Assembly: GCA_964019415.1 (NCBI GenBank)
Contig: OZ025871.1
Span: forward strand, 1,464,629-1,528,628
Length of the DNA: 64,000 bases
Direction of reading: 5' to 3'
Source of the DNA: Ianthella basta
Lineage: Eukaryota; Porifera; Demospongiae; Verongiida; Ianthellidae
Shown here: piece by piece, positions 5,845 to 64,000 of the stretch
How the letters are laid out: each line of letters starts with the position of its first letter
Numbering within the stretch: position 1 is the stretch's first letter
Program-made: the position numbers and the translations under genes
The notes under the pieces: model-generated
Seen by the model: only the letters and a program-made list of their open reading frames with translations
What the model was told of the DNA's origin: nothing
Database searches by the model: none

Positions 5845-14602
<8,758 letters not shown>

Positions 14603-15485
14603 GCCAGGGCCTTCCACAAAGCGTCTAATAGGGTGTAAATTGCATTCTCTCTCTGTGTATTGTTCTTGAATTAGCACTGTAAAATCTATTTCATATTTAT
14701 GTGACATGCCACCATAGAACTGTGTACTGTAAACTGGATGTTTGAATATTATTATTGTTTCAGAGCGTAATTATGTGTATAAATATATACATTGCTTATG
14801 TACGTATGTAGCACATGTCGAGTGCTTAATTATTGCAGTACTGTAACACTTACGTAGTGCACACAGCTCCTATTGACGCCATTTTGGGTAGTTCTATTGA
14901 GTCTCGTGATCAGCCTCTCCTCCAGGGTGCTGAGATGAGGTACATAAATGGAGCTTTCATTGCAAGTGCACGGGATGGAGAGGGAGGGTCAAGCTAGACT
15001 TGGGTCTGTCCCTGCACTAACATTGCAGCGATAACAGTTGGGGGTTCTATAGAAAGCAGATAGCCACGGTAAGGCTAGGACTGTCAATCCTCGTTGGAGA
15101 TGTGTCCTTATTTTAGAGCTAGTTTTGTGCACATCTCTATGTAGCTGGGACAGTAGGCACTGTCCTCATTAGAGAGGCGTCCTTATTTCAGAGGTAGTTT
15201 TGTGCACATCTCTATGTAGCTGGGACAGTAGGCACTGTCCTCATTAGAGAGGTGTCCTTATTTCAGAGGTAGTTTTGTACACCTATCTCTATGTAGCTGG
15301 GATAATAGGCACTGTCCTCATTAGAGAGGTGTTGGTTGTGGGGGATTGCAGTGGATACGAACCACAGTCACTGTTCAAGTGATGTCATCTCATAACATGC
15401 ATATAAACAACACAGACACTACAGGTAAACAGGTGTGTAAGTGCATGTGAGTGTGTTGAGAAACACAAAGAGGGGATTCCTGTTA
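14603..15485. other. ATAD2/PPP1R8 convergent intergenic region
   Basis: The 3' ends of ATAD2 and PPP1R8 face each other across about 880 bp. I see no gene. It holds the second array of the 75-bp satellite. No unambiguous AATAAA signal was found next to either stop codon. Confidence 0.7.
15098..15330 (+). repeat. 75-bp satellite, three units (array 2)
   Basis: Units begin with CCTTATTT at about 15106, 15181 and 15256, in the same orientation as array 1, and share AGTTTTGTGCACATCTCT and GGGACAGTAGGCACTGTCC. Confidence 0.9.
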
Positions 15486-19383: not shown

Positions 19384-31311
<11,928 letters not shown>

Positions 31312-32110
31312 CAATGACAAGATGAGATGTCTTAAAGCACCTTTTCCACTGTGTATACATGAGACTGTGTGTGAGCAAGCATGTCCCACACTGCACTATC
31401 ACGCTGTGTGTGCCTTTTGCTGGGTTTAATTAACTGTGAATCACGTTAGTTCATTTCCACACCACACCACACGCATACCACTGCCTTATCAGTTTATGCC
31501 TTCTTTTTCTTACTACTTATTTACTTACGATTTTATCTTTATTTACTTAAGCCTGCATACACTCAGTTGTTTGTGTTATGTCATACTTGTACGTATTGTG
31601 CAATAGTGCCCGCTTTTGTGTATTGAATTATGTAATATCTATATTATATCATAATATATATATTGAATTTTGTATCTGGTTGTGGACATTAGTCTTGTGT
31701 ATAACGGGAGAGGGGAGTGTTGTGTAATAGAGGGCCATGGAGCTGAGGGGCTGCAGCTAGTCTCAATCACACAAGGACCAACATGGTCATAATAGGCTAT
31801 ATGTCATAGAGTGAATAATAGCCCTGCATTCATGTGGCTGGGACAGTCGTGATGGTGCAGTAGACACATGGTTATGTGCTTGTGTGAACTTCCCATGCAT
31901 CCCTCTATATTATCACTGTGCATGCACAAATGGCCATGGCATCCATCATCATGCATACTGTGGATGAGTCTCATGAACAAGACATGAATGAAGGAACACA
32001 CGACATAGCTTTGGAGAATATTGTATAATCACACAATTAATGTTATAAACATACAATTAATGTTCTGTGAGTTCAATTCTGTACTGATACGAACAAACTG
32101 GATGATTTGT
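31312..32110. other. Intergenic 3' flank between NUP153 and the ROC-COR gene
   Basis: The 3' ends of NUP153 (plus) and the ROC-COR-Death gene (minus) converge here. The region is AT-richer, with an ATATTATATCATAATATATAT stretch near 31640. I see no gene. The whole block is repeated, nearly base for base, at 56425-57180. Confidence 0.75.
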
Positions 32111-32942
32111 TCACTGGGGAAGGAACCTGTCTGCCTTGAGTCGCTCTGTGAATGCTCTGTGTCCGGCGTCCTCCACTGCAGACAGGATAGTGCGCCAAGT
32201 TCTCTCCCTCTCCCCTGTGCCTTGTTCCCATGACAACCACCGATCGAATATGTCTGTGCATGAATGTTCGCAATGCCTTGGATGATCTGTTTCAGCCATT
32301 CTTATCACAGAGGAGTCCAGACCAAGATGGATGGCTACTGCACTCCAGTTGGCAGCAACTTCCCTGACAATGAGCTTGTTTACAGCTTGGAGGGTGGGGG
32401 TGGAGTCAATGCTGAAAGTGGTTGGCATATCTGTGGAGAGGATAAGACCAGAGTGTAGGCCCAATGAAATGAGCCACTTAGTACTTGAGTGCTGTTGTGG
32501 CTACCCTTGTGTGAGGAGATTGTACTAGCCTATCCCAACATAACACACCTTACACAGATAAACCTACCACACTTGGTACACTAAGAGGTTCATCAGCTTC
32601 ATAGTGCATAGTGACACTGCATGCACAGAGCATACGTACCTTGCTGTGTGGAGGGTTGCTTGTTGGAAGTACAAACTTCACATTGGGAATGTGACGACGG
32701 TACGGATGGCAAGTCTGAAGAGAGTGGAGCTGCAGCTATAAAGGAAAAGTAAGCAAAATCTCTAGGTTAGCCAAACAACACACTAACATGCACACGTGTG
32801 CACACAGCCACACACATACAGTAGTGCACATGTGCTTACACACACACACACAAACCACACACACACGCACACACACACACGCATGCACACACATGCACAC
32901 GCATGCACGCACACAGACACGAACACACACACAAATGCGCGT

Positions 32943-32977
<35 letters not shown>

Positions 32978-35900
32978 ACACGTGCACGCACGCACACACG
33001 CACGTCATGTCTCAGTTGCAGCATACAAAACAGCAGCCCTCAGTACATTCAGGGGCTATACCATACGGTACCAAGCACTGTGGTAGCATTCCTAATCTTG
33101 GCAATGGTTCTGCCATAAAACACAAGTGAAACAACCCACACAATTACTGCACTGCATGCCCACGCACATCATGCACACGCACACATGTGTATGCACACGC
33201 ACACCATGCACACTTCTCACCATTGGCATCAGGATGCACCCACGCATCTTGTGGTAAAGTTGGTTCACCTTCAGCTGCAGCAAAGGAAGCATGGATGTAC
33301 AGTAATACAATGTCATTTAGGAGGAACAAATCATGCCTGCATGTCTGGTGTGGACTGAGATCAGTTGGAACAGCCCACATTAGTGTGACAATACTGCTAC
33401 TTCCACTTGGATAGAAATGGGAACGGGCTATCAGTATTTGGTTAACAGTTGTTCACACAGACTGCAATTAGTAGCCATTTTGACACAAGCTCCTGCACCA
33501 ACATGCCACTGGTCACACAGAGTGAACTATTGGCTAAGCTGGCTAATCCTATCAGCTGCCGTAACATGGAGAGGACAATGAATAATGTTGCCTGAATGTT
33601 CTGGCATCAGCTTTAAAGATAGTGCATGGACAATCATTCAAACCCTCATCAGTACGACATCAACCACAATATTGTCAATCAAGGAGAACACCACACAGTG
33701 TGTGTGTCAGCAGTGTACGGGGACACACCTACCACAGTTGGTACCAAGTGAGATGCAATTGGGTGTTTACAGTGGCAATGCACAGACCTCATACCATGAG
33801 TTCTTTCTCTGTGAGAGTTGGGATACGATGCTACTGAGGGCACTTCCGAAGAACATGGTGCTGCATATGTGAAGAGGAATAGGCCACAAAGTAACACTCA
33901 GTATTCAAGCTCACTGTTTGATCAGTTAGGTTCCCATTCCCAATTTCTACAGGAATGGAGATCTAACTAGAGTGCATGAGATGTGAAGAGGAAGTACAAC
34001 AATGAAACAAATATAATTTCATATGCATCCAAAGCCAGGCTACAGGGCTCACATACTCACCTCTTTGTAGCTCCATCTTGAAGTTCATGTCCTGTACAAC
34101 TGACAAAGGAGGAGACCATCCTCCAAACAACTCTGGAAGGCTCATCTGGTAAGGAAGACGGCCATCCTGTCTTGGCAGGGATAGAATGTGGTCATCTTCA
34201 TCCTTGATGCAAGAAACGATACTTGATACAGGATAGAGGGAGTCAGGGGGAGGAGCTTTGGGTTCCTCCCACATAGTAGGTATGTAGGGGTGGACAAGGT
34301 AGGATGTGGCCTCCAGCTTTGGCGATTGCTGGGTAATTGTATGGATGACAGTTTGGACAATGGTTGACATGTATCGGTGCAATTTCTCAGGTCTTGCCTT
34401 GCTGCGTCCAACAACTTGGACCACACTCTTGTCACTTATCTGGACCGCTATGTCCACACCTTTGGTGGACCTCCAGGAAAGGCCATTCACCCAAACACTG
34501 CAGCAGTGCTCTTTCACACTGGGAGATAACTCATGGGTGAACACATGATTAGCTGCAAGACGGAGGATGATGGTTTGAAGGAGATGGGCAGAGATGAACT
34601 GTTTATTAACTGTCTTCAGCCGCCAGCACGTCCACTGGAGGTGCTGTGGTTCTGGATCATCTGGGAAGACTTCAAGGGGTTGCGCTGACACTAGGGCAGG
34701 AAAGTACAGCCATCCTTCCACCTCATCTTTTGCTGTCAGCTTCAACATTTCTTCTCTAATGAGCAAGGGATCGACCTGGATGCAGAATTCAAGACAGACT
34801 AGTACCTCTCGGATCATTTCTTGATCCAATTTGGGAAACAGCTCAGCCAGTTGGCTGCAATGGAGGAGACCAAACTTGTTGACCTTGCCCTGGGACCTGG
34901 ACAACAGAGTGCCATACACATTGTGGAGAACGGCTTGGAGGTCCAAAATGAGCCAACTTTTGGAGGGATCTCGCTTGTTGGGGAGAAAGAGCGCATGACC
35001 AACTGCTGTTAGGTCACAACACACCTTCTCAGGTGGGGGGAGGTGCAGTGGGAGCAGTTCAACACTTTCCAGCAGCCATGACTGGAAGGTGTGGAGTGTG
35101 ATGGCTGGAATGGAGAATGCTTTTCTCATTTGTACTAGGACTAAGTGAAGGTTGTATGAGAAACTGTCAGAATTTAACAGAGGGCATTGAATTTCTGAAA
35201 AATAGGTGCAAACTTGATTGATGCCCTCAGATTCTGGCTTGCGGCAGTCAAGGAGACACGGACCCTGGATGTTGAAAGGTAACTCCTCCTGTACTGACTG
35301 AGTGCATCGTAACAGTTTACTGGTTGCATCTTTGCGGGACTTTACTTGGTCCAGGAAACTGGCAACAAGTATCACTTGTGGAGTGGATGGGGTTGATGCA
35401 CATACTAGAGGTTGCAGCCACTGAGTGACCTGTTGTGTGATGATATCTTCATCATCAGTTGCCTTCACTAGAAGTAACAGGGTCACAGGCACTTCTGGCT
35501 TGCTCAGTATAGCCTCCAGGAAAGACTGATGAGGGCCATGGTAATCAGACTGACCAGCAAAGTCATAGAATAGCGTTTCACCATACTTATGACTGGAGAA
35601 AAGGACTGTTTCAATTCCAGTTGTTCGTTGTCTGATGTCATCCACTTGTGTGAACCAGTAAGTGAACTTTTTCCATAGGCTTGTGCTCTCAGCTTGCAGA
35701 GCAGCTATGAATGTACTTTTGCCATAATTAGCATTGCCAATTACTGCAACAACTCTTCTGGTAGAGAAACACAGGGTCTGTTGGATGGACTGCCGGAAAG
35801 GACCTGATGCAAGGTCCAGGGGAGACTTGGAGTCCATGTTCTTTGCGGTCACATCTGCTCCTGCCTCCACTAAAATGACTCCACATTTAATCCTATTCTG

Positions 35901-38900
35901 TTTAGCAGCAAAATGCAATGCTGTTGAACCAGCAAACCAGGAAAAATTTCGTCTATTGTTCTTTGTGGTCACACTGGCATCTGCTCTGATGAGCTCATGC
36001 ACCACTTGGTCATGACCCTTGTAAGCTGCACCCATCAAAGCTGTTCTGCCATCTTCATCTTGTTCATTGACATCAGCCCCGGCCTCAATGAGGGTTTTAA
36101 CAACACTGGAGTCACCTTCACTGCTGGCATAGCAAAAAACTCTTTGTTTTTGTTGCTTGCTCATTGCAGTCACACAAGCACCTGCTTTGATTAGCTCACA
36201 CACCACTTGGTCATGATCCTTGCAAGCTGCATACATCAAAGCTGTTATGCCACATTCATCTTGTCCATTGACATCAGCCCCAGCCTCAATGAGGGTTTGA
36301 ACAACACTGGAATGGCCTTCCCCACTAGCTTTGTGAAGAGCAGTTTGTTGTTTGTTGTCCTTTGCAGTCACACTAGCACCTGCTCTGATCAGCTCATGCA
36401 CCATTAGGTCATGACCACCTAAAGCTGCATTCATCAAAGCTGTTCTGCCATCTACATCTTGTCCATTGATATCAGCCCCAGCCTCAATGAGGGTTTCAAC
36501 AACACTGGAGTCACCTGCCCAGCTGGCATAACCAAGAACTCTTTATTTTTGGTGCCTATTCATTGCAGTCACACTAGCACCTGCTCTGACCAGCTCACAC
36601 ACCACTTGGTCATGACCATTGTGAGCTGCATACATCAAAGCAGTTCCACCATTTTCATCTTGTTCATTGACATCAGCCCCAGCCTCAATGAGGGTTTTGA
36701 CAACATTGGCATGACCTTCCCAGCTGGCTTTGTGAAGGGCAGTTCGTTGTTTGTTGTCCTTTGCAGTCACACTAGCACCTGCTCTGATCAGCTCACCCAC
36801 CACTTGGTCATGACCTTTGGAGGCTGTATCCATCAAAGCTGTTCTGCCATCTTCATCTTGTTCATTGACATCAGCCCCAGCCTCAATGAGGGTTTTGACA
36901 ACACCGGAATGGCCTTCCCCGCTAGATTTGTGAAGAGCCGTTTGTTGTTTGTTGTCCTTTGCAGTCACACTAGCACCTGCTCTGATCAGCTCATGCAAAA
37001 TTAGGTCATGACCACCTAAAGCTGCATTCATCAAAGCTGTTCTGCCATCTTCATCTTGTTCATTGACATCAGCCCCGGCCTCAATGAGGGTTTCAACAAC
37101 ACTGGAGTCACCTTCACTGCTGGCATAGCAAATAACTCTTTGTTTCTGTTGCCTGCTCATTGCAGTCACACTGGCACCTGCTCTGATTAGCTCACACACC
37201 ACTTGGTCATGATCCCTGCAAGCTGCATACATCAAAACTGTTATGCCATATTCATTTTGTCCATTGACATCAGCCCCAGCCTCAATGAGGGTTTTGACAA
37301 CACCGGAATGGCCTTCCCCGCTAGCTTTGTGAAGAGCAGTTTGTTGTTTGTTGTCCTTTGCAGTCACACTAGCACCTGCTCTGATCAGCTCATGCACCAT
37401 TAGGTCATGACCACCTAAAGCTGCATTCATCAAAGCTGTTCTGCCATCTACATCTTGCCCATTGATATCAGCCCCAGCCTCAATGAGGGTTTTAACAACA
37501 CTGGAGTCACCTGCCCAGCTGGCATAACCAAGAACTCTTTGTTTTTGGTGCCTATTCATTGCAGTCACACTAGCACCTGCTCTGATTAGCTCACCCACCA
37601 CTTGGTCATGACCTTTGTGAGCTGCATACATCAAAGCAGTTCCGCCATCTTCATCTTGTTCATTGACATCAGCCCAAGCCTCAATGAGGGTTTTGACAAC
37701 ACCGGAATGGCCTTCCCCGCTAGCTTTGTGAAGAGCAGTTTGTTGTTTGTTGTCCTTTGCAGTCACACTAGCACCTGCTCTGATCAGCTCACACACCACT
37801 TGGTCATGACCCTTGTAAGCTGCATACATCAAAGCAGTTCCACCATCTTCATCTTGTCCACTGACATCAGCCCTAGCCTCAATAAGGGTTTTGACAACAC
37901 TGGAATGGCCTTCCCCGCTAGCTTTGTGAAGAGCAGTTTGTTGTTTGTTGTCCTTTGCAGTCACACTAGCACCTGCTATGATCAGCTCATGCAAAATTAG
38001 GTCATGACCACCTAAAGCTACATTCATCAAAGCTGTTCTGCCATCTACATCTTGTCCATTGATATCAGCCCCAGTCTCAATGAGTTTTTTGACAACACCG
38101 GAATGGCCTTCCCCGCTAGCTTTGTGAAGAGCAGTTTGTTGTTTGTTGTCCTTTGCAGTCACACTAGCACCTGCTCTGATCAGCTCACCCACCACTTGGT
38201 CATGACCCTTGTAAGCTGCATACATCAAAGCAGTTTTGCCATCTTCATCTTCTCCACTGACATCAGCCCCAGCCTTAATGAGGGTTTGGACAATACTGGA
38301 ATGGCCTTCCCAGATGGCTTTGTAAAGGGCAGTTTGTTGTTTGTTGTCCTTTGCAGTCACACTAGCACCTGCTCTGATCAGCTCACCCACCACTTGGTCA
38401 TGACCCTTGTAAGCTGCATCCATCAAAGCAGTATCACCATCTTCATCTTGTTCATTGACATCAGCCCTAGCCTCAATGAGGGTTTTGACAACACTGGAAT
38501 GGCCTATCCAGCTGGCTTTGTGAAGAGCAGTTCGTTGATAGATGTCCTTTGCAGTCACACTAGCACCTGTTTCTATCAATTCATGCACCACTTGGTCATG
38601 ACCCTTGTAAGCTGCAACCAACAAAGCTGTATTGCCATCTTCATCTTGTTCACTGACATCAGCCCTAGCCTTGATGAGGGTTTTGACAACACAGGAATGG
38701 CCTTTACAGCTGGCTTTGTGAAGGGCAGTTTGTTGATAGATGTCCTTTGCAGTCACACTAGCACCTGTTCTGATAACGTCATGCACCTCTTGTTCATGAC
38801 CCTTGTCAGCTGCATCCATCAAAACTGTTATGCCAGCTTCATCTTGTTCATTGACATCAGCCCCAGCCTCAATGAGGGTTTTGATAACACTGAAATGGCC

Positions 38901-40511
38901 TTTCCACCTGGCTTTCTGAAAGGCAGTTACTTTATGATTGTCCTTTGCAGTCACACTAGCACCTGCTCTGATCAGCTCACGCACCACTTGGTCATGACCC
39001 TTGTCAGCTGCATCCATCAAAACTGTTATGCCATCTTCATCTTGTTCATTGACATCAGCCCCAGCCTCAATGAGGGTTTTGACAACATTGGAATGGCCTT
39101 CGAAGCTGGCTTTGTGAAGGGCAGTTCGTTGATAGCTGTCCTTTGCAGTAACACTAGCATCTGTTTTGATCAGCTCACACACCACTTGGTCATGACCCTT
39201 GTCAGCTGCATCCATCAAAGCTGTATCGCCATCTTCATCTTGTTCATTCACATCAGCCCCAGCCTCAATTAGGGTTTTGACAACATTGGAATGGCCTTCA
39301 CAGCTGGCTTTGTGAAGACCAGTTCGTTGATAGATGTCTTTTGCAGTCACACTAGCACCTGCTCTGATCAGCTCACACACCACTTGGTCATGACCCTTGT
39401 AAGCTGCATCCATCAAAGCTGTATCGCCATCTTCATCTTGTTCATTCACATCAGCTCCAGCCTCAATTAGGGCTTTGACAACACTGGAATGACCTTCCCA
39501 GCTGGCTTTGTGAAGAGCAGTTCGTTGATGGATGTTCTTTGCAGTCACACTAACACCTGCTTTGATCAGCTCACCCACCACTTGGTCATGACCCTCGTAA
39601 GCAGCATCCATCAGAGCTGTTATGCCATCTTCATCTTGTTCATTAACACCAGCCCCAGCCTCAATGAGGGTTATGACAACACTGGAATGACCTTCCCAGA
39701 TGGCTTTGTGAAGGGCAGTACGTTGATTGATGTCCTTTGCAGTCACACTAGCTCCTGCTGTGATCAGCTCATGCACCACTTGGTTATGACCCTTGTAAGC
39801 TGCATACATCAAAGCAGTTTCGCCATCTTCATCTTCTCCACTGACATCAGCCCCAGCCTCAATGAGTTTTTTGACAACACCGGAATGGCCTTCCCCGCTA
39901 GCTTTGTGAAGAGCAGTTTGTTGTTTGTTGTCCTTTGCAGTCACACTAGCACCTGCTCTGATCAGCTCACCCACCACTTGGTCATGACCCTTGTAAGCTG
40001 CATCCATCAAAGCAGTTTCGCCATCTTCATCTTCTCCATTAACACCAGCCCCAGCCTCAATGAGGGTTTTGACAACACTGGCATGGCCTTCGAAGCTGGC
40101 TTTGTGAAGGGCAGTTCGTTGATAGTTGTTCATTGCAGTCACACTAGCACCTGCTCTGATCAGCTCACGCACCACTTGGTCATGACCCTTGTCAGCTGCA
40201 TCCATCAAAATTGTTATGCCATCTTCATCTTGTTCATTGACATCAGCCCAAGCCTCAATGAGGGTTTTGACAACACTGGAATGGCCTTTCCAGCTGGCTT
40301 TGTGAAGGGCAGTTCGCTGTTTGTTGTCCTTTGAAGTCACACTAGCACCTGCTCTGATCAGCTCATGCACCACTTGCTCATAGCCCCTTTCAGCTGCACA
40401 CATTAAAGGTGTAATCCCAAATTCATTTGAGGCATTCACATTTCGTCCATCTTGCACGAGCTGCCTCATTCTGACCCAGTCACCCTCTGTACAAGCTTCC
40501 ACAAGAGCCAT
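32111..40511 (-). CDS. Ankyrin-ROC-COR-Death protein, interrupted by one in-frame TAA
   Basis: Exons: 34061-40511, 33221-33274, 32640-32735, 32111-32430 (TGA). The first exon encodes about 45 ankyrin repeats, alternating two types in a 66-residue period, then a ROC GTPase-like domain with P-loop GNANYGKST (about codon 1592), DFAGQ (G3-like) and SFLDQ in the G4 position, then a COR-like region ([19 protein letters not shown]). The last exon encodes a Death domain ([28 protein letters not shown]). Domain order resembles DAPK without the kinase. Such proteins are innate-immune or apoptosis adaptors by analogy. Codon 1323 is TAA (36543-36545) where sister repeats have CAA (HQKQRV); the frame continues openly for about 830 codons. 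It may be a pseudogene, an allele or a sequencing error. The start is the first ATG ([10 protein letters not shown]); an upstream noncoding exon is possible. Confidence 0.82.
32770..33010. repeat. Degenerate (CA)n/CACG array in ROC-COR intron
   Basis: A CA array interrupted by GCATGCACACACATGCAC and ACGTGCACGCACG words, between exons 32640-32735 and 33221-33274. It marks the approximate end of the duplicated block shared with 53597-57870. Confidence 0.85.
35800..40430 (-). repeat. About 23 tandem 198-bp ankyrin doublets
   Basis: Each 66-codon unit joins one repeat of type [29 protein letters not shown] with one of type [27 protein letters not shown]. Many units are nearly identical, implying recent tandem expansion or gene conversion. 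The antisense strand has long non-stop frames only because the repeat unit lacks stops there. Confidence 0.9.
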
Positions 40512-53159: not shown

Positions 53160-53206
53160 TGCGCATGCGCACGAACACGTGTCAGGAAAGAAGGTCCATA
53201 TAAAGG
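53160..53206 (+). promoter_or_regulatory. Candidate promoter: NRF1-like palindrome and TATA box
   Basis: TGCGCATGCGCA (53160-53171), the consensus-like palindrome of NRF1, and TATAAAGG (53199-53206) precede an ATG at 53311 by about 105 bp. A short upstream frame (ATG at 53240, 11 codons plus stop) would lie in the leader. It would drive the NUP153-tail gene. Confidence 0.5.
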
Positions 53207-53310
53207 AAGGCCCACCACGCCCCCTTACGTTCAATTCCAATGTCAAATTTCCTCGTCACTTTGGAGTTCGTCTAAGGAGGATCGAAGTTTAACGCGGAGA
53301 AGTTTGGATT

Positions 53311-55346
53311 ATGCCACCTCCAGCTGTAAATACCATTGTGGACGTGATAAGGAAAGAGCAGTTGAATATTGATAATTATTCAATCCAGCGACGTGAGTGC
53401 ATGTTTCTGCTCTTCTCTATTGCCCATACCTTTATTGTACGTTACAGTTTCTCGGTCTAATGATTTCTTTTCACCGTCCTTTTTGTTACATTTCCTATGT
53501 CTGTTGCGTAGGTCGTGTAGACAGGCCAATTAGAGCAGCTGTGAGCCCTTCAATCAAATAAACTGTATGTCTGGTTGCCATGCACCAATTTAGCTAGCAA
53601 AGAGTGACTTAAGTGTTGGTGTGAAAGCAAGTGGAGTTGCAACAACAGCGCCTGGTTTGAGTGGTGGCCTAAAGTTGGGGGATGCTTCTTCATCTGGTGC
53701 ACTCTTTAAAGGTGCAAATTTGTCATTCTCAAACAATTTCAACATAGCACCCAGTGGTGGATTGAAGCTCGATGGGGATATGAGGCTGAATAATCTTCCA
53801 CTGTTGCCTGCAACTTTGGCGACCGTATCCAAGGAGACAGCCAGTGGTGTTCCTGCCGTGGGTGGTCTCAGCTCCAGTGGCACTGCACTGGGTTCGGAGG
53901 GTGCACAGCAGAGCAGTACTGTGGGTAGGTTGGGATGGGCACTAAGAATCACTGGGCTCTTATTTGGGTGCGCCTTAACCAAGTATAACATTGTATGTAC
54001 ATTGTGCTTTGACAGGAATAGGATTGTTCTTGAGTAACACGTAACAAAGGAAAGTAAATTTGTGTGATATTTAGATATTTCAACCAAGAGGGTCCTCGTC
54101 AGCCGCTAAAATACATCATTGTGCTGGTGTATTTATAACAGCCCTGGGCTCTTCAGATTGAGTATAATATGGCTAAGCCCTTGGATTCATTCTGTAGCAC
54201 TGCATTGTGGGGAGGTTTTAAAAGGCCTGGGCTCTTATGTATTTGAATGCTAATGCTATGTTGCAAGCTTTTAACAGACCTGGGCTCTTATGTGTATAAA
54301 CGTACCCTATGTTGCAGGCTTTGCCTTTGGTGCTGATGGGGTGAAACCCGGGCTCTTATCTCAGTCAACTCCGTCCACAGAAGCGAAGAACAGTGGTCTT
54401 GTGTTTGGAGGCTTGAATGAAGGAGTGACAGAGCAGAAAGCTGCCACATCGTCATCCACAGGGCTCCAGGTGCCTTCATTCTTATCAACATTCCAGAAAG
54501 AGGGAAGCAACTTGTTTGCTGCCTCTTTGAAGAGTGATGCAAGTTTGGAGCAGAAGTTATCGAACTCCAACCCATTGAAAGTGGTGGCGTCATCCAGTAG
54601 TGTGCCTACGCTTGGTGGTGGTGTTGGTCTATTCCCTTCACCTGGGCTCAAACCCTTCACACCAGCAGTAGGAGGCACTGCCCCACAGCTCACACTAGGT
54701 GGCCTCCCATCAGCTCCCACTGCCTCTGCAAGTGGTCTATCCAATAGCACACAGGGTGGTGGTCTGTTCTCACAGCCCCCTACAGGGCTGCAGCTCTCGC
54801 GAAATGCTGAGTTGCCCAATGCTGGGTCCCTTGGTCTGCCTGAGAGTAAGCCCCTGCAAGTACTCAACACTGGACCAGTGGGCGGGACCACAGCACCTTT
54901 TCAATTTGGAACCCAAGGTACGTACACATCATGTCATAGTGTTCTTGTATCATCCCTTCTCGTTGGGGTTGCATGGTGATAGGTGGATAGATGAGGTTGG
55001 CATGACAGTCACATGGTTGTCGTGTCACAGTCACACAGATGGTTGTATTGTGACAGCTACATGCATGGCTGACATGTGACTGTCACATGGTTGTCACATT
55101 GCAATGTGACCGTCACATGGCTGTCATGACGACTACGTAGTTGCCCTCCCCACTTGTAGGCTCCAGTGGTACTCCATCGGATAGCCCGTTTGCTGCTAGT
55201 CTCACTGCCCAGCCATCGCAGCAGAGCCAACCACCATCACTGTCAAGTACTGCATTGAACTTCTTTGGACAACCGTCAGCAGCAACCACACAGCAGGCCC
55301 CAAGTGGAGGTGAGCAGTTGTGTCCATCTAGTGTGTGTGCGTGTGT

Positions 55347-55422
<76 letters not shown>

Positions 55423-55475
55423 GTGTGTGTGTGCGTGCGTGCGCACGCATGTGCGTGTGTGTGTGTGTGTTTGCA

Positions 55476-55510
<35 letters not shown>

Positions 55511-55950
55511 TAGGTAGTGTGTGTGTTGTTTGTCTAGCTGCTAGTTTCTGCTGCTCATCTCTTGCTGGGGGGAAGTAATGTTTTCTTGGTTTGCTGATGA
55601 TGAAGTATGGGCTAGCAGCTAGCAACTGTGGTGTGTGTTGTGTGTGTACATGTGTGTTAGGTGTGTCCATTCATAGTTCTGGCACCATGCATCTTCCATG
55701 TGTCGGTTTCACAAATGGACTATAGTGAAATGGTAGCAGGCATTGCTCACCAAGCACTGCACATCATGTGCATGTGATGTGCTTGTGACTGTCACCTGAC
55801 ATAATTGTATTCATTACCTGTTGTATCATGTGTAGTGGTGTTAGTGATGTGTGATGTGTGTTTGTGCAGGGTTTGCAGGAGGTCTTGCATTAGGAGAGCA
55901 AAAGCCACTGGTAAGTCCTGTCTCTGGTTGTGGTGTGTGTGTGTGTGTGC

Positions 55951-55993
<43 letters not shown>

Positions 55994-56424
55994 CATGTGT
56001 GCGTGTGTGTGAACGTGTGTGTGTGTGTGTGTGTGCGTGTGCGTGTATGTGAATGTGTTTGTATGTGTGTATGTGTTTTGTCAACTAATAACCACTCCAT
56101 GTTCCATAGGGAGGAGGAGGTAGTGGAGGCGTCTTTCCAGGACTTCAAGGTCCTTCAACTCTACAATCTTCCATTTCAGCAGGGACTGCACTAACTTTCA
56201 AGTTTGGAGAAGCAAATCCCACTCCCAACTTTACATTTGGAAGTGGGAACACAAACCCACTAGTCCCCCAATCAGCCGATAATCCTTTCCTCTCAAACAA
56301 GTCACCCAGTGCAACCCTCAACTTCACATCCACCGACGCTGTGCAAGGAACAAACATGTTTTCTCCCGCTGCCGTAAAGAATACCCATATTGTCAAGAAG
56401 GCAGTACGGCGAGGAAAGAGATAA
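53311..56424 (+). CDS. NUP153-tail paralogue with a new first exon (predicted 504 aa)
   Basis: Proposed exons: 53311-53392, 53598-53924, 54318-54917, 55160-55309, 55870-55910, 56110-56424 (TAA). The last five are copies of NUP153 exons 12 (3' part) to 16, with splice sites and frames conserved; exons 13-16 have exactly the parental lengths. The homology starts abruptly at 53597 within former exon 12. Upstream, an 82-bp exon (MPPPAVNTIVD...) ends in GTGAGT at phase 1, and TAG at 53595-53597 supplies an acceptor that keeps the NUP153 frame. The product would be FG/GLKL-type tail plus the basic C terminus, without zinc fingers or the N-terminal pore-anchoring region. An 18-bp insertion near 53770 keeps frame. 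The first exon is a prediction; without it this is a 5'-truncated pseudogene with no stop codons. Confidence 0.6.
54074..54102 (-). ncRNA. Hammerhead-like motif, paralogue of 27603-27631
   Basis: Minus strand CTGACGA, stem GACC/GGTT with loop CTCTT, GAAAT-ATC. Stem II pairs better than in the first copy, and the flanks TTTAG/CTAAA give a different but still complementary stem I. Confidence 0.4.
55332..55501. repeat. (GT)n microsatellite in duplicated NUP153 intron
   Basis: A GT array of about 170 bp with GCGTGCGCACGCATG interruption. It is the uninserted counterpart of 28886-30400. Confidence 0.95.
55933..56075. repeat. (GT)n/(GC) microsatellite
   Basis: A GT array with GCGCGCGC centre, longer than the homologous array at 30915-30965 in the parental intron. 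Confidence 0.9.
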
Positions 56425-57180
56425 CAATGACAAAATGAGATGTCTTAAAGCACCTTTTCCACTGTGTATACATGAGACTGTGTGTGAGCAAGCATGTCCC
56501 ACACTGCACTATCACGCTGTGTGTGCCTTTTGCTGGGTTTAATTAACTGTGAATCACGTTAGTTCATTTCCACACCACACCACACGCATACCACTGCCTT
56601 ATCAGTTTATGCCTTCTTTTTCTTACTACTTACGATTTTATCTTTATTTACTTAAGCCTGCATACACTCAGTTGTTTGTGTTATGTCATACTTGTACGTA
56701 TTGTGCAATAGTGCCCGCTTGTGTATTGAATTATGTAATATCTATATTATATCATAATATATATATTGAATTTTGTATCTGGTTGTGTACATTAGTCTTG
56801 TGTGTAATGGGAGAGGGGAGTGTTGTGTAATAGAGGGCCATGGAGCTGAGGGGCTGCAGCTAGTCTCAATCACACAAGGACCAACATGGTCATAATAGGC
56901 TATATGTCATAGAGTGAATAATAGCCCTGCATTCATGTGGCTGGGACAGTCATGATGGTGCAGTAGACACATGGTTATGTGCTTGTGTGAATTTCCCATG
57001 CATCCCTCTATATTATTGCTGTGCATGCACAAATGACCATGGGATCCATCATCATGCATACTGTGGATGAGTCTCATGAACAAGACATGAATGAAGGAGC
57101 ACACGACTTAGCTTTGTAGAACATTGTATAATCAAACAGTTAATGTTATAAACATACAATTAACATGCATTCTGTGAGTT
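56425..57180. other. Duplicated NUP153 3' flank
   Basis: Near-identical to 31312-32070 with a few short deletions and point changes. No gene seen. Confidence 0.85.
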
Positions 57181-57189
57181 CAATTCTGT

Positions 57190-58014
57190 ACTGATACGAA
57201 CAAATTGGATGATTTGTTAACTGGGGAAGGAACACGCCTGCTTTGAGTCGCTCTGTGAATGCTCTGTGTCTGGTGTCCTCCACTGACCAAGATTGATGAA
57301 TTATTGATTAGATGGATGACTACTGCCATTCTTATCACAGAGGAGTCCAGACCAAGATGGACGGCTACTGCACTCCAGTCGGCAGCAACTTCCCGGACAA
57401 TGAGCTTGTTGACGGCTTGGAGGGTGGGGGTGGAGTCAATGCTGAAAGTGGTCGACAATATCTGTGGAGAGAGTAAGACCAGAGTGTAGGCACAATGAAA
57501 TGAGCCACTTAGAGTACTTGAGTGCTGTTGTGGCTACCCTTGTGTGAGGAGATCGTACTAGCCTACCCCAACACAACACACATACACAGATAAACCTACC
57601 ACACTTGGTACACTAAGAGGTTCATCAGCTTCATAGTGCATAGTGACACTGCATGCACGGAGCATACGTACCTTGCTGTGTTGTAGTCCGTGCCTTTGTC
57701 ACTGTGGAGGGTTGCTTGTTGGAAGTACAAACTTCACATTGGGAATGCGACAGTGGGACGGATGGCAAGTCTGAAGGGAGCAGAGCTGCAGCTATAAAGG
57801 AAGAGTGAGCAAGTGGTCAACCTCTAGGTTAGTCAAACAACATGCAAGTGTGTTCAAACACATGCATGCGCGCACACACCACACACACACCAGTAATGCC
57901 CACACTCACCTGTGACAGAGTGTTGCGTGTTCATGTGGACAGACACAGCCACAACCATATGGGGAATTTGAGGGAAACAAGGATCTCTGCGCTCTAAATC
58001 GGTAGTAGCCATTT
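57190..58014 (-). pseudogene. Decayed 3' end of an ankyrin-ROC-COR-Death gene
   Basis: Homologues of three 3' exons: about 57672-57792 (linker, [12 protein letters not shown]), 57910-58014 (linker ending VHMNTQHSVT) and the Death exon at about 57190-57463. The Death exon has one extra base right after its acceptor (GTCGACAATAT against GTTGGCATAT in the intact copy), and its second half is replaced: about 110 bp present at 32180-32300 are missing and unrelated sequence follows. No ROC-COR or ankyrin exon adjoins it. Confidence 0.7.

Positions 58015-59635: not shown

Positions 59636-64000
<4,365 letters not shown>

Follow-up and report, generated by a model that had tools for sequence, protein, structure and literature searches.

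Whether a partial gene duplicate placed behind a foreign promoter has become a gene in its own right, or merely survives as the intact member of a decaying array, is the question raised by a locus of the sponge Ianthella basta, at which the last exons of a NUP153-like gene follow a promoter and a small ATG exon of different origin. The window, that is, the whole stretch of DNA analysed (64,000 nt, C4:1464629-1528628), was examined together with 120 kb around it (184 kb in all), and the assembly (209 Mb, 96 contigs) was searched; positions are window coordinates extended past 64000, to which 1464628 is added to obtain the C4 position. The best explanation, which we consider probable, is a fusion by tandem duplication, with the copy in the window (A) being the best preserved and no new function shown; the structure of the array and of the fusion is secure.

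The parent gene (P) contains a RanBP2-type zinc-finger exon (25162-25626, plus strand; PF00641 match) followed by the counterparts of A, from part of exon 12 to exon 16 (27153-31311, plus strand). The zinc-finger exon has one 100% match in the assembly, the three others being short and 84-89% identical. Solved structures gave it 24 matches, 16 under the name Nup153 and eight under RanBP2/Nup358, the best being RanBP2; because both names occur, the zinc fingers alone cannot separate the two proteins. No Pfam Nup153 family was found at E values up to 10 for 20248-21060, exons 13 and 16 of P or exon 16 of A, nor at 0.01 for 20248-21300 and 26237-27526. We take P to be NUP153 from its layout, in which zinc fingers precede an FG tail that runs to the stop. 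Exon 12 of P lacks 18 nt relative to A, and this loss seems to be P's, as a related exon-12 frame on another contig (P0001) has the longer form by eye. The sequence GLQVPSFLSxFQKE of exon 13 (27851-28447), which contains no FG, recurs in all 12 aligned exon-13 sequences except for one V in place of L (P0004), and may serve the NUP153 tail of these animals as a binding motif.

In the self-alignment, A 53597-57285 aligns piecewise to P 27152-32178, from P 27152 on. The copy, on the plus strand, comprises a truncated exon 12 without its native acceptor (53598-53924; 327 nt, a multiple of 3), exon 13 with its native acceptor (54318-54917; 600 nt), exon 14 (55160-55309; 150 nt), exon 15 (55870-55910; 41 nt) and exon 16 (56110-56424; 315 nt with the stop, encoding the protein end KKAVRRGKR), with GT donors and AG acceptors in place; exons 13-16 and 20 nt on either side are 96.3-98.4% identical to P. 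The five copied exons are still separated by their four introns, ruling out a processed retrocopy. Joined to the 82-nt exon at 53311-53392, the five tail exons give 504 codons with no stop, and only A among the tail copies keeps a frame from ATG to stop. The initial annotation had described just such a duplicate of the NUP153 3' part, with its splice sites, an open frame and exons of 600, 150, 41 and 315 nt, and the description holds for 53597-56424. Starting at P 27152, 3' of the zinc-finger exon, A has no zinc fingers, and it presumably also lacks the N-terminal pore anchor of NUP153. Its FG-rich tail has six FG in 476 residues, four of them as FxFG.

Upstream of the tail, the elements reported in the initial annotation were found in place: TGCGCATGCGCA, a perfect NRF1-type palindrome (53160-53171, unstranded) in what reads as a BLCAP-derived promoter, the TATA-like TATAAAGG (53199-53206, plus strand), and the 82-nt ATG-to-donor part of a presumably BLCAP-derived exon 1 (53311-53392, plus strand), which ends in phase 1 with the donor GTGAGT at 53393. 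Within the 184 kb, TGCGCATGCGCA occurs only at 53160, 74354, 123268 and 155840, corresponding to units A, B, D and E; a single site of the window, found on both strands, fits the 12-mer consensus YGCGCAYGCGCR, against none in 100 dinucleotide shuffles. TGCGCATGCGCA is given as the NRF1 site of the FMR1 promoter in PMC3820735. The TATA-like element reads TATAAAGA in B and is absent from C and E.

The likely source of these elements is indicated by unit E, whose 5' region (to 156332) carries no tail, tracks A as far as the junction and then diverges. It precedes, on the same strand, the only BC10 match of the genome, a complete 65-position match to the right of the array: an 82-aa frame after the E donor matches PF06726 (BC10, the BLCAP family; E=1.6e-17), BC10 starting about 0.47 kb past that donor, and an acceptor-like ATGCAG lies at 156512-156517. 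As the E 5' region leads to this single match, the 5' end of A is read as BLCAP's; by position, strand and promoter motif, what was captured is most simply the promoter and 5' exon of BLCAP, cut upstream of the coding exon. The stretch at 53393-53596 (plus strand) would then be what is left of BLCAP intron 1; an alternative acceptor lies within it at 53510-53511 (TTGCGTAG, followed by G). In E, GTG replaces the ATG of A, and the frame of exon 1 is broken by an insertion of 7 nt, which would fit an exon that is not translated in this unit; B retains the complete ATG exon. An open stretch of 27 codons is a weak sign of coding. Passages of PMC1626109 say nothing on a 5' exon of BLCAP. A tail duplicate joined to a foreign promoter and exon, as proposed from the window itself, is confirmed; the probable BLCAP source and the tandem-duplication junction had been missed.

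The array comprises five tandem units, extends about 92 kb beyond the window and is flanked by the NUP153-like gene on the left and by single-copy BLCAP (BC10) on the right. Within about 92 kb past the right window edge lie three extra tail copies, B (74794-76432), C (99579-100894) and D (127458-130342), and four extra copies of the 5' region. In a search of the sponge's own genome, exon 13 sequence was found at four places (P, A, D and in part B) and the 5' region once in each of the five units A to E, all inside the examined stretch. The 5000 bases directly left of the window are N, and they follow about 9 kb of minisatellite-like sequence (L005/L006, C4:1450069-1459446) whose long minus-strand frames repeat motifs such as SCLILPHLVSS. 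Not part of the copied units is a tandem repeat of 75 bp, seen at 8286-8526, 15088-15332 and 21428-21604 with a spacing of 6-7 kb. Farther right, two open frames of 326 residues on opposite strands (L014/L015; 142875-143852 and 143389-144366) share identical first 50 residues, so that 142875-144366 is probably a long inverted repeat; the one frame tried had no Pfam match.

Two junctions are distinguished in the array. Junction J1 (53597-53599, unstranded) is a GCA microhomology common to the sequences of E (..CTAGCATAAACC), P (..CATGGCAAAGAG) and A (..GCTAGCAAAGAG), the AG at 53596-53597 matching the BLCAP side; it is common to A, B and D, all of which start at the same P base. Unit C continues for about 65 nt of extra BLCAP-intron sequence before entering NUP153 intron 13, and because of this additional intron sequence its junction (J2) is separate from J1. 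Both the junctions and the order NUP153, units, BLCAP are what repeated tandem duplication predicts. The copies beyond the window are preserved to different degrees. In B, exon 12 has 3- and 43-nt deletions, a larger deletion reaches exon 13, the frame is lost, and exon 16 was not found; C has exons 14-16 only, with a stop four codons ahead of the natural one. All five exons of D are open; its ATG exon is absent by eye, its exon 12 has no in-frame ATG, 3.6 kb interrupt its promoter between the positions equivalent to 53200 and 53212, and its exon 1 shows, by eye, a short insert whose ends are inverted. A DDE_1 transposase frame (L013:258-1163, minus strand) lies inside the 3.6-kb interruption.

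Each of the five units also carries a minus-strand ankyrin-repeat gene; the two units scanned showed many ankyrin repeats and a weak Roc/GTPase match. The copy in unit 1 (33963-40511, minus strand) is split into two frames by a stop at 36543-36545, and that of the A unit (62199-64000, minus strand) runs past the window. A single open frame is kept in A (1774 aa), B (1428 aa) and C (1979 aa), whereas unit 1 and D have it split. The 480 codons compared, which start at the P-loop region, give a dN/dS of 0.20-0.32 in 10 of 10 pairs, with dS of 0.17-0.26. The clearly constrained gene of the unit is this ankyrin-GTPase gene, not the NUP153 tail, and with constraint being clear there, the tail may merely ride along.

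Taken together, these features suggest the tandem duplication of a stretch bounded by a point within NUP153 exon 12 and another shortly past the start of BLCAP intron 1, which would have placed the BLCAP promoter, 5' exon and donor upstream of the last exons of NUP153 at the junction. Unequal exchange would then have produced five units with the ankyrin-GTPase gene as cargo, and a second, separate junction would have arisen in unit C. The best-preserved junction is A, and some transcription of it from the captured BLCAP promoter is probable. In the initial annotation, the AG at 53596-53597 restored the NUP153 frame. The resulting frame is indeed open (504 aa), but this AG is one of several acceptors and is not judged the likeliest; its competitors are two further AGs (53511 and 53593) along with the native exon 13 acceptor. 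Pyrimidine counts in the preceding 20 bases (12 for 53597, 14 for 53511, 12 for 53593 and 11 for exon 13) do not decide among the four. An acceptor giving an exon start at 53512 ends the frame after 43 aa, and one giving a start at 53594 ends it after 31 aa. Splicing from 53392 to the exon 13 acceptor skips exon 12 and leaves the frame open (395 aa), since the truncated exon 12 has 327 nt. From what is generally known of splicing, a transcript of A would more likely join BLCAP exon 1 to NUP153 exon 13, giving the 395-aa form, than use the weak AG at 53597 for the 504-aa form.

That A is a functional new gene, producing from the BLCAP promoter a soluble FG-tail protein that lacks zinc fingers and anchor and is under selection, is in our judgement unlikely, even with several features in its favour. 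The frame is open from ATG to stop in both splice forms, exons 13-16 keep their native splice sites and the promoter palindrome is retained. Between the copies, dN/dS, a measure already suggested in the initial annotation, is below 1 over exons 12-16 (P-A 0.39, P-D 0.37, A-D 0.46; Fisher p 0.0008-0.014 across the pairs) and lowest in exon 13 (P-A 0.21, A-D 0.26). The best sign of constraint is the lack of exonic indels between A and D, with none in 1433 exonic nt as compared with 15 in 1746 nt of non-coding tail (conditional p=1e-4), the non-coding parts holding simple repeats; the headless C follows the same trend less strongly (0 indels in 506 exonic nt, p=0.034).

Private changes were counted as well. 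In one-sided tests, with the neutral share of replacement changes put at 68% from the spectrum seen in the tail introns and 3' flank, replacement and silent changes number 11 and 9 in A (p=0.15), 11 and 10 in D (p=0.09), 22 and 19 in A and D together (p=0.034), and 14 and 14 in P (p=0.03). By exon, A and D together give 7:6 in exon 12 (p=0.20), 5:7 in exon 13 (p=0.05) and 10:6 in exons 14-16 (p=0.39). In a four-copy count over exons 14-16, A has six replacement and two silent changes, which is the neutral expectation, C has six, two and one stop, and D and P have 3:3 each. The excess of silent over replacement changes is weak for A by itself, and it does not track the chimeric frame, because D, with no usable ATG exon, has the same ratio. 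A new FG-only gene is possible, with the open frame in A set against the decay of other copies such as B and C, the counts for A alone, the GTG of the E exon and a proposed acceptor that is not the likeliest; the competition for transport receptors suggested in the initial annotation would be a putative role.

Relatives of the tail bear on the same question. A search with the 504-aa chimera gave one match, a NUP153 exon-12-like frame, among 7991 candidates sharing most words; P exon 13 gave nine among 519 candidates, eight of them at 53-81% identity and one tail-like (P0002). No second tail copy was present among these nine relatives, in which clustering at 90% identity could hide one. The 1774-bp public contig P0002 has an open, tail-like exon 13 with 97% identity to P; it begins MCINVPYVAG as A and D do (P has ICINVPYVAG), LNTGP and FGTQ are also common to them, and it has a single residue change in common with each of A, D and P, a mixture to be expected of recombining copies. 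At sites that set P apart from both A and D, the nearest outgroup, P0003, agrees with A and D at KEG, VVA and NTG. A thus holds the commoner residue where P has changed, which speaks for function; yet at KEG the relative P0009 has KEE, as P does.

Much of the conservation of the tail may be explained by gene conversion with NUP153. In the introns and 3' flank that were compared, differences among P, A and D amount to 2-9%, and pairs with B differ by up to 12% in intron 12. Divergence over the whole tail is 0.036-0.053 (seven pairs measured) and over the 3' flank 0.027-0.048, against 0.051-0.125 in the upstream blocks, 0.066-0.166 in the intergenic blocks and 0.063-0.111 in the ankyrin-GTPase block, the flank values being low estimates because they come from BLAST-aligned parts only. 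With the microsatellite part of intron 14 and the whole of intron 15 left out, the non-coding tail differs between A and D at 72 of 1746 sites, compared with about 294 of 4009 in the upstream and intergenic flanks (p=2e-6; the 5' region and ankyrin blocks, also higher, were excluded), and between A and P at 78 of 1832, compared with about 191 of 1153 in the intergenic block (p=2e-29). The A-B pair shows no such contrast (tail 0.052, upstream 0.051, intergenic 0.066), and an older or faster-evolving block is another possible reason for the higher ankyrin divergence. The identity of the odd copy out also varies across seven segments (p=0.009; exons 14 and 15 left out for having few sites), P being odd at 21 of 31 sites in intron 12 and at 6 of 41 in the 3' flank. 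From these patterns, tail sequence seems to have been exchanged with NUP153, in which case low dN in A need not show that its own protein matters; the near-equal similarity of A and D in non-coding tail (72/1746) and exons (44/1433) is likewise what gene conversion would give. The open frame of A would then be the result of a modest age and of gene conversion with its parent, selection being weak at most.

A more specific proposal, which we regard as improbable, is that A works as a BLCAP-driven soluble FG decoy. On this view, fusions of one gene pair (J1 and J2) would have arisen at least twice in a single array that also carries ankyrin-GTPase genes, and a transport-modulating nucleoporin fragment would be co-amplified with a diversifying gene cluster while conversion prevents its divergence from the parent. 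Passages of a review of nuclear pores and the export of mRNA (PMC4198930) contain nothing on soluble Nup153 tails. Quite improbable, too, is an independent tiny two-exon gene ending before an untranscribed tail fragment, with exon 1 up to 53392, exon 2 from 53512 and a stop overlapping AATAAA near 53557. The AG at 53511 is followed by G, and splicing there does give the 43-aa frame with its stop inside AATAAA; however, AATAAA is present in E but is AATACA in B, C and D, exon 1 of E has the 7-nt insertion and GTG for ATG, no Pfam match was found for the 43-aa peptide, and BC10 starts about 0.47 kb past the E donor on the same strand. An assembly artefact, in which unpurged haplotypes were joined in tandem, is very improbable: a tail divergence of 3-5% could be allelic in an outbred invertebrate, but the zinc-finger exon and BC10 each occur once in the assembly, both of which joined haplotypes would repeat, the units differ in insertions and have two different junctions, and most flanking blocks are 5-17% apart, with ankyrin-GTPase dS of 0.17-0.26.

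The preferred reading, fusion by tandem duplication, places the locus on a known route to new genes. It offers a worked case of chimeric-gene birth, with the parents, the unfused end, two junctions and variously decayed copies within about 130 kb, and a caution that, where a parent may be converting its copies, dN/dS measured between near neighbours can look like selection. Our literature search found nothing on Nup153 duplication in sponges and, by title, no nucleoporin chimera from tandem duplication matching this locus. A nucleoporin gene multiplied by segmental duplication is seen in the RGPD genes derived from RANBP2 (PMC6920530); these are dispersed in the genome, are expressed and bear marks of positive selection. 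In the sponge, copying was confined to the FG-containing end of a NUP153-like gene. In Drosophila yakuba, 76 chimeras from tandem duplications are described in PMC5460883, with 24 showing increased expression over at least half of the duplicated exonic sequence. As in A, duplication that ignores gene borders joins the 5' end of one gene to the 3' end of another; those chimeras are population variants with RNA data, whereas A belongs to a diverged multi-unit array. The closest likeness is to Sdic of Drosophila melanogaster, an expressed AnnX-Cdic chimera whose removal gives a sperm-competition phenotype (PMC3395120). There, as here, duplication made a chimera of neighbouring genes in tandem copies between both parents, with promoter elements derived from the fusion, a coding region from one parent and a new 5' exon giving a novel N-terminus. 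In the sponge, correspondingly, P lies to the left and BC10 to the right of the array, A, B and D have their junction in common, and E is unfused. The two systems differ in that the whole BLCAP promoter and exon 1 were presumably captured here, that the unit also carries an ankyrin-GTPase gene, and that, compared with the nearly identical Sdic copies, those of Ianthella are more diverged and mostly decayed.
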